Positions 43,054-55,276 of a stretch of DNA of 64,000 bases are shown piece after piece. The notes under the pieces were generated by a model. It worked only from the letters and a program-made list of their open reading frames with translations, ran no database searches and was not told the origin of the DNA. Each line of letters opens with the position of its first letter. Position 1 is the stretch's first letter. The stretch comes from Spirosoma spitsbergense DSM 19989 (GTDB lineage Bacteria > Bacteroidota > Bacteroidia > Cytophagales > Spirosomataceae), in the NCBI RefSeq assembly GCF_000374085.1, contig NZ_KB893542.1, forward strand, positions 207 to 64,206, in the 5' to 3' direction. Both the position numbers and the translations under genes were made by a program.

Positions 43054-44373
43054 TTAAGCTGCTACCGTTTCGCTACTCGTACGTCCCTGAAGACGGCCTG
43101 ATTTCATAAGGCCTTCATACCGACGCATCAGTAGATAGCTTTCAATCTGCTGAAGCGTATCAAGCACTACACCAACCATAATAAGGAGTGATGTACCGCC
43201 AAAAAACTGGGCGAACCCACTGGTCATCCCAAATATGTTAGCGATGGCTGGTAGTATAGCCACAATGGCCAGCATGATAGCACCTGGTAATGTGATTCGG
43301 TCGAGAACAGTACCAATGTATTCGGATGTTTGAAATCCTGGTTTTACACCCGGAATAAATCCACCACTCCGCTTCATGTCATCAGCAATCTGAACCGGGT
43401 TAACCGATATAGCTGTGTAGAAGAACGTGAAAACGATAATCAGTAGAGCAAACAGCACATTGTATTGCCACGTTGTATAGCTCTGAAAAGCGTTTTGTAT
43501 ACCAGCCGCAAAATCGCTTTTCTCCGAAAACAGCCCAGCTACGTACGTAGGGATAAACATCAGCGCCTGAGCGAAGATAATTGGCATCACACCCGCAGCG
43601 TTGAGTTTCAGTGGCAGATATTGACGCTGTCCACCTACTACTTTATTCCCAATAACCTGTTTGGCATACTGAATCGGAATTCGACGAACGGCCTGGGTGA
43701 GTACAACTGCTCCCATAACCACAAAGTACAGGGCTACCAGTTCCAGAACGAAGATCAGAATACCGCCTGACCCTCTCGACTGTTGTTCGCCGATCAACGC
43801 ACCCGGAAGCCGGGAAACTATTCCAATCATGATAATCATTGAAATACCGTTTCCGATTCCTTTATCCGTAATTCGTTCTCCCAGCCACATACAAAATATG
43901 GTACCTGCTGTAAGAATGAATAGGGAAGAAATGGTAAACAGCCCCTGATCAATCAGTAACGCTTCTTTCGGAATTGTTGTACGGACGTAAGTCAGAGCCT
44001 GCACCGCAGTAACTACAATAGTTAGTATCCGCGTAATTTGATTCAGCCGCTTCCGCCCCGACTCACCTTCTTTTTGCATCTTCTGAAAATAAGGAAGTGC
44101 AAGTGTGAGTAGCTGAATGGCAATCGATGCCGAAATATACGGCATGATACCCAGTGCGAAAATTGACGCTTTACTGAATGCTCCACCCAAAAAAGTGTCT
44201 AACAAACCAAGTAACCCCTGAGGATTCAAATTTAGTTTGTTAGGATCGACACCCGGCAACACAATAGCTGAACCAAGACGGAAGGCCGTGATGAACAGTA
44301 GCGTGTTGAGGATTCGACTCCGCAACTCGTCAATCGCAAAAATATTCTTAAACGTGGTGATGAGTCGGTTCAT
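43054..44373 (-). CDS. secY: Protein translocase subunit SecY
   Basis: The channel-forming subunit of the Sec translocon, 439 residues with ten membrane segments. Conserved regions include ALGIMPYISASIAIQLLTLALPYFQ (TM2, plug side), GERITDKGIGNGISMIIMIGIVSRLP, the cytoplasmic loop with QAVRRIPIQYAKQV, LPLKLNAAGVMPIIFA and GTSLLIMVGVVLDTLQQIESYLLMRRYEGLMK. Located between rplO and map. Confidence 0.98.
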   Translation of the reverse strand: MNRLITTFKNIFAIDELRSRILNTLLFITAFRLGSAIVLPGVDPNKLNLNPQGLLGLLDTFLGGAFSKASIFALGIMPYISASIAIQLLTLALPYFQKMQKEGESGRKRLNQITRILTIVVTAVQALTYVRTTIPKEALLIDQGLFTISSLFILTAGTIFCMWLGERITDKGIGNGISMIIMIGIVSRLPGALIGEQQSRGSGGILIFVLELVALYFVVMGAVVLTQAVRRIPIQYAKQVIGNKVVGGQRQYLPLKLNAAGVMPIIFAQALMFIPTYVAGLFSEKSDFAAGIQNAFQSYTTWQYNVLFALLIIVFTFFYTAISVNPVQIADDMKRSGGFIPGVKPGFQTSEYIGTVLDRITLPGAIMLAIVAILPAIANIFGMTSGFAQFFGGTSLLIMVGVVLDTLQQIESYLLMRRYEGLMKSGRLQGRTSSETVAA

Positions 44374-53430: not shown

Positions 53431-54051
53431 CTATTTCTCGATAATAACGTATGAATTTTTAGCTCCGGGAACCGAACCACTCACAACGAGCAAATTCTGC
53501 TCAGGCATAACCCGTAAGACACGCAGGTTCTGAACCTTTACGCGGTTACCGCCCATGCGGCCACCCATACGAATACCTTTGAACACGCGCGACGGAAAGG
53601 AGCAGGCACCAATCGAACCTGGGTGACGACCCCGGTTATGCTGACCGTGGGTTTGACCACCCACACCACCGAATCCATGACGCTTTACAACACCCTGGAA
53701 ACCACGACCTTTCACTGTGCCAACAACGTCAACGAAGTCCAACTCAGTAAATACATCGGCAACCGTGAGTGTTGCTCCCAAACTTAACTCCTGCTCAAAT
53801 TCTTTGAATTCGACCAGTTTACGCTTGGGGGTAGTACCAGCCTTTTTAAAGTGGCCAATCTCCGGTTTGTTACTGTGCTTCTCTTTCTTGTCGCCATAAC
53901 CCAGCTGCACAGCTGTGTAGCCATCTTTCTCGATGCTACGAACTTGTGTTACGACACAGGGACCCGTCTCAATCACTGTACATGCCAGAGCCTGCCCGTC
54001 CGCATTGTACACGCTGGTCATCCCGATTTTCTTGCCAATTAAACCAGACAT
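53431..54051 (-). CDS. rplC: 50S ribosomal protein L3
   Basis: 206 residues, starting [19 protein letters not shown], with [47 protein letters not shown] near the peptidyl-transferase centre. It is the first gene of this ribosomal cluster; rpsJ, which normally precedes it, is absent. Two -7 boxes and an attenuator-like leader lie upstream. Confidence 0.98.
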
Positions 54052-54123: not shown

Positions 54124-54131
54124 CAAATGTA
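54124..54131 (-). promoter_or_regulatory. Proximal -7 promoter box of the ribosomal operon
   Basis: Reads TACATTTG on the minus strand, 73 nt before rplC and downstream of the leader terminator, so it would bypass attenuation. A small hairpin at 54096-54120 (CCCC/GGGG-type stem) lies in the resulting leader. No good -33 TTG is visible. Confidence 0.5.
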
Positions 54132-54188
54132 GGCAAATAATCAGGAGAATCCTATATGTGCTTAACAATCAGGCCCGGAAATGACATT

Positions 54189-54217
54189 AAAAAAGGCCGG
54201 ATGCACAGCATCTGACC
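54189..54217 (-). terminator. Leader terminator (attenuator) upstream of rplC
   Basis: On the minus strand GGTCAGATGC and GCATCCGGCC form a 10-bp stem with one mismatch, one G-U pair and a 3-nt loop, followed by six T residues. It is 138 bp upstream of rplC. Two upstream segments can pair with its arms instead: CATCTGAC (54272-54265) with GTCAGATG (54216-54209), and ATGCACGGC (54247-54239) with GCTGTGCAT (54209-54201). Confidence 0.65.
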
Positions 54218-54265
54218 TTGAATGACACATAAAGCCAAGCCGTGCATGGTTTATTTGCCGAAAAG

Positions 54266-54301
54266 TCAGATGTGGTTTCTGTTGTAGACCTTCATCTTCA
54301 T
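54266..54301 (-). CDS. Putative 11-residue leader peptide
   Basis: A short ORF reading MKMKVYNRNHI and ending in TGA, 35 nt downstream of the distal -7 box. Its last two codons and stop lie inside CATCTGAC, the segment that can pair with the terminator arm. A ribosome at the stop codon would therefore block that pairing and favour termination. Translation is not proven and no homologue is claimed. Confidence 0.4.
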   Translation of the reverse strand: MKMKVYNRNHI

Positions 54302-54335
54302 ATGTCATCAACTCGTTGTTCTGAGTTTGGGACTG

Positions 54336-54343
54336 CAAAAGTA
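54336..54343 (-). promoter_or_regulatory. Distal -7 promoter box of the ribosomal operon
   Basis: Reads TACTTTTG on the minus strand, an exact match, about 290 nt upstream of rplC. It would produce the leader RNA containing the short ORF and the attenuator. The -33 region is T-rich without a clear TTG. Confidence 0.55.
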
Positions 54344-54449: not shown

Positions 54450-54507
54450 CCCCCATAAATGAACAAATCCCGGTTAACACTAACCGGGATTTGTTCATTT
54501 ATGGGGG
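54450..54507. terminator. 27-bp perfect hairpin after sdhB
   Basis: Perfect 27-bp arms at 54450-54476 and 54481-54507 with a 4-nt loop, 10 bp past the sdhB stop. It most likely ends sdhCAB and insulates the ribosomal operon leader. There is no long T-run after the stem. Confidence 0.75.
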
Positions 54508-54517
54508 CAGTACTCAA

Positions 54518-55276
54518 TCAACCCTGTACATTTTCGGTAGTTAACTGGGCACCTAAGTACTCACGGTTCATACGGGCAATATGGTCAAGCGAAATTGATT
54601 TTGGACATTCAACAGAGCAGGCACCCGTAAACGAGCAGGCTCCAAATCCTTCAGCATCCATTTGTGCAACCATACGTTCTGCCCGCTCTTTGTGTTCGGC
54701 TTTACCTTGCGGTAAAATGGCTAACTGCGATACTTTAGCCGACACAAACAGCATTGCTGATGCATTTTTACAGGCGGCCACACAGGCACCACAACCAATA
54801 CAGGCTGCGGCATCCATTGCCTCGTCGGCAATGCTACGTGGAATAAGGATTTCGTTAGCATCAGGTGCAGAACCGGTATTGACCGATACATACCCACCTG
54901 CCTGGATAACGCGGTCAAAAGCAGTCCGGTCAACCATCAAATCTTTAATGACCGGAAAAGCCCGCGCCCGCCAGGGCTCTACCACAATGGTATCGCCATC
55001 GCTAAACGACCGCATGTGTAGCTGACAGGTGGTCGCACCCGTTTGGGGGCCGTGGGGACGGCCATTAATGTACATCGAACACATACCACAGATGCCCTCC
55101 CGGCAGTCGTGGTCGAAAGTAACGGGGTCTTCTCCTTTCCGGGTCAACGAATCGTTTAATACGTCGAACATCTCCAGGAATGACATGTCTTCTGAGACAT
55201 TGTCTAGCTGGTACTCCACCAGTTTTCCGGCCGCATTACTACTCTTTTGTCTCCAGACCTTTAAATTGATCTTCAT
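54518..55276 (-). CDS. sdhB: Succinate dehydrogenase/fumarate reductase iron-sulfur subunit
   Basis: A 252-residue electron-transfer subunit. The [2Fe-2S] site is [27 protein letters not shown]. The second half holds [11 protein letters not shown] and [15 protein letters not shown], the ferredoxin-like ligands of the other clusters. It links SdhA to SdhC and the menaquinone pool. It follows sdhA after 95 bp, a gap occupied by a repeat element with the same core as the one before rplQ. Confidence 0.97.

Follow-up and report, generated by a model that had tools for sequence, protein, structure and literature searches.

A cis-acting non-coding leader RNA, here called type A, likely controls transcription of the rplC–secY operon of Spirosoma spitsbergense DSM 19989 by attenuation and probably senses a protein encoded in the operon itself. 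The RNA contains three mutually exclusive helices, which are conserved, and it has a fixed place before rplC. It is best read as an undescribed leader RNA of a known kind; it combines a constant place upstream of ribosomal-protein genes with a covarying structure, as r-leaders generically do. An earlier note on this DNA had proposed an attenuator-like leader before the ribosomal operon, with CATCTGAC in competition with a terminator, and a comparison across the family backed this proposal. How the largest ribosomal-protein operon is regulated has been worked out in detail in few lineages, and the type A RNA provides a concrete, testable switch at the rpsJ–rplC junction in one Bacteroidota family.

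The window, the whole stretch of 64,000 nucleotides analysed here, carries the leader on the minus strand between sdhB (54518–55276) and rplC (53431–54051, minus strand). rplC, encoding L3, heads a joined S10-spc type operon that includes rpsH and ends with secY (43054–44373); Pfam confirmed the identities of L3, L4, S8, SecY, and the iron-sulfur subunit. The parts of the leader, all on the minus strand, are the putative promoter P1 with its −7 element TACTTTTG (54336–54343), a sensor (aptamer-like) hairpin (54269–54296), segment 2 CATCTGACTTTT (54261–54272), segment 3 AAGGTCAGATG (54209–54219), segment 4 GCATCCGGCCTT (54193–54204), and a T6 run (54189–54194) that completes a predicted intrinsic terminator. 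TAnnTTTG is the −7 promoter consensus of Bacteroidota, and TACTTTTG, which is of this type, was found where the earlier note had placed its promoter (54343–54336). The folding of the window leader was more stable than that of all 200 dinucleotide shuffles (z −3.1). Directly after sdhB, at 54507–54450, is an inverted repeat whose arms match perfectly over 27 bp around a loop of four bases; it is perhaps the sdhB terminator, and as such would shield P1 from transcription that arrives from upstream.

A covariance model built on 36 sequences matched 129 of 222 family genomes at E ≤ 0.001, of which 124 had strong matches and five weak matches only. A search of the order gave matches in 51 of 341 genomes, 49 of them from the same family and the other two weak. 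Both searches used stricter filters, which lose weak matches, and strong matches were confined to one family. The sequences analysed below are 122 of the 124 strong matches, the window included; two on short contigs (G026 and G206) were left out. In all 122, rplC lay directly downstream of the leader, with its start codon 100–157 nt from the match end in the T run, and the rpsJ stop lay 22–186 nt upstream of the leader in 77. Among the first 40 loci, all 35 strong matches preceded rplC, and the five weak loci had no rplC. The exact core pattern was found in 122 of the 222 genomes, in one copy each, against 18 of 222 for the reversed control. Named records carrying the type A leader include Dyadobacter, Runella, and Persicitalea. 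The weak model matches (30–42 bits; L160, L171, L195, L196, and L197), which include the two from outside the family in the order search, were rejected: all five lack rplC, and four of them give a score on the opposite strand as well, so they were taken as chance. One locus (L002, NZ_JAPQNS010000010.1) titled Flavobacterium sp. SUN052 has a type A leader and an L3 that is 86% identical to that of the window; the title may be wrong.

The conserved core begins with the hairpin GRUG-AA-GGU-CC(variable stem)GG-AA-ACC-A-CAYC and continues with segment 2 (CAYCUGAC), a variable spacer, segment 3 (GGUCAGRUG), and segment 4 with the T run. The 3′ strand of the hairpin doubles as an arm of the antiterminator. 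This covarying hairpin, which contains CATC, had been overlooked in the earlier note. Counts for the hairpin and the antiterminator, including those of the pseudoknot discussed below, refer to an alignment of 100 of the 122 sequences (99 distinct). All eight core pairs of the hairpin were kept in all 100 rows, the unpaired letters of the compact hairpin were invariant, and the variable stem contained two-sided changes. RNAalifold returned the hairpin and the terminator when no structure was supplied. When it was applied in stages to the 33 sequences from the genus of the window and to 26 of genus g8, it returned the hairpin, then the antiterminator with the lower hairpin opened, and then the hairpin with the terminator. 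Of the 36 genomes of the genus, 33 yielded an L3, and the stretch from the promoter to the T run was strongly conserved among the 30 upstream regions that were aligned.

The competing helices proposed in the earlier note were both present. CATCTGAC (54272–54265) matches GTCAGATG (54216–54209) in a perfect 8-bp antiterminator, whose 7-bp core was paired in 98 of the 100 rows; 93.9% of the antiterminator cells were paired, against 17–42% in slid controls. The terminator hairpin (54219–54193), followed by T6, was conserved beyond chance with two-sided changes. In the window it reads CAAGGTCAGATGCTGTGCATCCGGCCTTTTTT, with one internal A·C mismatch. It is a GC-rich hairpin with a T run, at least five T stand at the match end in 94 of the 100 rows, at least nine of ten terminator pairs were kept in 99 rows, and seven of the 12 pairs had two-sided changes. 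For the hairpin and terminator together, 96.7% of cells were paired, against 34–47% in slid controls, in an alignment that had been fitted to this structure and favours it.

Two-sided changes occurred in nine pairs of the hairpin and terminator, versus 3.5 in shuffles, and none of 500 shuffles reached nine. The antiterminator had two such pairs, in two cells, and 3 of 500 shuffles reached the same; this covariation is thin perhaps because segment 2 must suit two partners. When the 36 rows of alignment A2 were taken by themselves, shuffles often had as many pairs with two-sided changes (73/500 for the hairpin and terminator, 439/500 for the antiterminator), while the number of cells with such changes did exceed that of shuffles (0/500 and 11/500, respectively). 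Parsimony on the rplC tree gave 4, 4, and 6 double changes at terminator pairs 147–175, 153–169, and 156–166, five at hairpin pair 26–49, and one each at antiterminator pairs 60–152 and 65–147. In one sequence (L170), columns 16, 60, 152, and 170 read A, T, A, and T, where the other 99 rows read G, C, G, and C: one change in segment 2 is matched in both of its partners and in segment 4, so that concerted changes preserve three alternative helices at once. Another (L172) has T, A, and T at columns 64, 148, and 174. It speaks against the scheme that columns 64 and 148 form a pair in no more than 55 of 99 rows. An A that faces U61 of the antiterminator, at column 151 (alignment A4; window 54213), was invariant in 100 of 100 rows. 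It had no terminator partner in 32 of these, and its invariance despite this mismatch is likely a trace of selection on the antiterminator.

From these structures we infer an order of events during transcription. The sensor hairpin (54296–54269), a presumed anti-antiterminator, would fold first as RNA polymerase moves off. Once segment 3 emerged, segment 2 could quit the hairpin and pair with it as the antiterminator, and transcription would read through, which is presumably the default state. If the hairpin were held closed, probably by an excess of an operon protein, segment 3 would be freed to pair with segment 4, and transcription would stop at T6. The leader would be driven by its own promoter P1 in the genus of the window. 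In many sister genera its place is immediately behind rpsJ, so that it would there gate the read-through that arrives from upstream of rplC. Calculated energies are compatible with this scheme. In 121 of the 122 sequences (L170 left out), the appearance of segment 3 brought a mean gain of 9.9 kcal/mol, and the structure with the hairpin region and the terminator exceeded the minimum-energy fold by a mean of 1.4 kcal/mol, and came within 1 kcal/mol of it in 66. Such energies would meet the needs of a bistable switch, short of proof. The minimum-energy fold of the window depends on the stretch that is folded, and has either segment 2 paired with segment 3 or the terminator. It also suggested a pairing of AAGGTC (54292–54287) with the 3′ arm of the terminator, which was rejected: although 98.8% of cells pair, two-sided changes are absent and shuffles do as well.

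A metabolite aptamer could likewise have a compact hairpin whose unpaired letters are invariant, and switch states of close energy. We nevertheless regard a riboswitch for a small molecule or ion, such as an alarmone sensor, as improbable compared with a protein-binding leader, because the RNA stood before rplC in all 122 of the 124 strong matches that were examined and occurred in a single copy in each of the 122 pattern-positive genomes among the 222. Moreover, known ribosomal leaders bind a protein of their own operon, with some possible exceptions, according to the part of PMC7247131 used here.

The earlier note had assigned the choice between the helices to a ribosome translating a leader peptide. 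The frame MKMKVYNRNHI (54266–54301, minus strand; 11 codons) does exist in the window, with its stop overlapping segment 2, and mutually exclusive antiterminator and terminator helices, as such a mechanism needs, are present. Frames that start with ATG, GTG, or TTG and end at that TGA were found in 65 of 122 sequences. However, the peptides vary in start codon, length, and reading frame, and only 24 of 122 sequences, and 3 of the 33 of the genus, have an ATG whose frame closes at the TGA of CATCTGA (121 of the 122 cores were parsed in this analysis). In most genus sequences, the ATG of the proposed frame is replaced by ATAC-GAG or similar, and the frame is broken by a loop that varies in length from 6 to 24 bases. 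The lengths of the loop between TGAAGGTC and GAAACC in the 122 sequences were distributed modulo 3 as 56/42/24, so that 66 were not multiples of three. The frequent lack of the ATG and the variable loop length modulo 3 indicate that the leader peptide is not what is conserved, and the helices account for the conserved letters. We judge the frame to be non-functional, and a leader-peptide attenuator is a very improbable reading of this leader. In trp-type leader-peptide attenuators, antiterminator and terminator helices compete; type A has the same competing helices without a conserved leader peptide.

A second pairing, between ATGCACGGC (54239–54247, minus strand) and GCTGTGCAT, had been thought to join the first in a pseudoknot that excludes the terminator. 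In the 100 rows, 50.3% of its cells were paired, against 52.2% and 48.5% when it was slid by −3 and −2; in the 36 rows, the value was 60.1% against 60.4% when slid by −2. Its covariation score topped every slid version in both alignments and was reached by 2 of 500 shuffles with 36 rows and 1 of 500 with 100 rows, a weak signal that can be explained by the relatedness of the sequences. ATGCACGGC is probably non-functional as a pseudoknot arm, since slid controls pair as often. A lack of covariation or conservation in the pairings, which the earlier note itself had said would speak against it, was thus largely found in the pseudoknot arm and not in the antiterminator or the terminator. Since both the peptide and the pseudoknot failed, the ribosome-sensing logic built on them is unsupported.

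Sites of the promoter consensus occur on both sides of the leader. Upstream of the leader core, at a distance of up to 70 nt, TAnnTTTG was found in all 33 genus sequences and in 18 of the 89 others; seven of the 33 with this P1-type site also retain rpsJ. A second site, P2, which the earlier note did not mention, lies between the T run and rplC: TAnnTTTG was found there in 111 of 122 sequences, and the 11 without it all belong to genus g30, of which one locus (L003) has GACCTTTG. In the window, TAGGAT, 17 bases, and the P2-like −7 element TACATTTG (54124–54131) follow one another at 54154–54124 on the minus strand and are conserved in the genus alignment; they probably form a second promoter, from which transcription would escape the attenuator. 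As this promoter-like site is downstream of the terminator, P2 would give unregulated transcription of rplC, and the attenuator would govern only part of the transcription of the operon.

These sites also bear on the idea that the element does not switch and is either a simple terminator that ends the rpsJ operon or an independent small RNA gene from P1 to T6. The rpsJ end lies close upstream in the 77 sequences mentioned above, P2 could drive rplC alone, and P1 and the terminator enclose a separate unit some 150 nt long in the genus of the window. A terminator has no need, however, of a sensor hairpin and a conserved antiterminator, concerted changes preserve three helices, and rplC follows even where rpsJ is absent. 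Thus, we give little credence to this idea and retain an attenuating leader as the preferred reading.

No match above the gathering threshold of Rfam 15 was found in the window leader or in 20 loci, 19 of which have the type A leader. Among the 20 sub-threshold matches in the window, 16 were on the inverted repeat on the sdhB side and the other four on the strand opposite to the leader. No leader of rplC or of the S10 operon in Bacteroidota was found in the literature searched, with supplements and most subscription papers outside reach. Table 1 of PMC7247131, within the part of that paper used here, contains no Bacteroidota rplC leader, and its sole rplC entry is from Archaeoglobi; rplC is unmentioned in the main texts of PMC2864571 and PMC2965389. 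As the part of PMC7247131 used here describes them, the predicted r-leaders of Eckert and Weinberg (2020) resemble type A in being lineage-confined, covarying structures before ribosomal-protein genes. The rplJL (L10) leader of Bacillus subtilis has an anti-antiterminator, an antiterminator, and a terminator, and, like the switch proposed for type A, it applies three-state logic upstream of ribosomal-protein genes (PMC10931766, in part). It belongs to another operon (rplJ versus rplC here), and the likeness is one of switching logic alone and carries no claim of membership. The uL4-responsive S10 leader of Escherichia coli controls the equivalent operon, partly by termination within the leader (PMC10931766, in part), much as type A would, but type A sits after rpsJ or directly before rplC. 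In the same partial source, the E. coli mechanism consists of NusA and uL4 acting at the attenuator hairpin, with no antiterminator mentioned in that part, and the leader site is not conserved even through the gamma-proteobacteria (PMC10931766).

The ligand of such a leader is most likely to be one already known for the operon concerned (PMC7247131, in part). The candidates by this rule are uL4 and, because the spc genes are joined to the operon here, uS8. Ribosomal leaders often, though not always, imitate the rRNA site of their ligand. rpsH is in the operon, and S8 is a known autogenous repressor (PMC10931766, in part). The best rRNA match of the 3′ strand of the hairpin, RGAAACCRCAYCTGA, was nt 626–640 (h21) of E. 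coli 16S rRNA, a match equalled by 3 of 300 and 3 of 400 shuffles, and no shuffle of 400 reached the joint two-strand score; this test was devised after the resemblance had been noticed, and the rRNA was that of E. coli, not that of the leader family itself. On the other hand, the 5′ strand alone was not above chance (247 of 300 shuffles), and an earlier joint test against rRNA gave no excess. The core internal loop of the S8 site with its invariant A642 (GAUACU strand; PMC4176348, in part) is absent, GATACT occurring in none of the 122 leaders. Since this core is absent and the 5′ strand is at the level of chance, S8 is only a lead, and the leader does not belong to the S8 operator class. Within the attenuator reading, we consider it possible though unlikely that S8 is the ligand and that the hairpin partly imitates h21. 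In that earlier joint test, a resemblance to 23S domain I (GAUGAAGG/GGAAACC) was rejected, as its joint score against E. coli rRNA was reached by 181 of 200 shuffles. This first rRNA comparison was at chance, and naming the ligand is therefore a guess.

Sister genera without type A carry an unrelated conserved RNA, type B, at the same position upstream of rplC, with conserved blocks near GGTTGGCAGAACT, GTGTYAGAACTGNTAYTG, TGAATGCCCA, and TAAGCT. The type B search pattern was found in 56 of the 222 family genomes and had no overlap with the 122 genomes with the type A pattern or with the 124 strong matches. rplC followed type B in 27 of 28 loci (24 distinct), namely L008, L009, L010, L025, L259–L267, and L269–L282; the exception was the lone match in genus g9 (G137). 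This mutually exclusive distribution of types A and B is a natural experiment on the replacement of ribosomal leaders. In genera g4, g16–g18, g20, g21, g23, and g34, where some genomes are incomplete, neither leader pattern matched.

CUGNUAYUG, which is part of the search pattern, and UAAGCU were present in 27 of 27 type B loci; between them they are similar to both strands of the S8 site in h21 of 16S rRNA. For this sub-core, which was picked post hoc, 3 of 300 shuffles were as good, and the whole block B2 did not match the S8 site significantly (163 of 300 shuffles). In Rfam, L008 had no gathering-level match and L009, L010, and L025 had none that was convincing. It is conceivable, and rather unlikely, that types A and B replace each other at rplC and respond to one and the same ribosomal protein, perhaps S8, by way of parts of its h21 site. 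If so, a 30S protein would control the whole joined S10-spc operon by transcription attenuation, unlike in E. coli, and leaders would turn over around a fixed regulatory need. Three type B genomes (G152, G154, and G155) have a weak type A model match, which is located on another contig.
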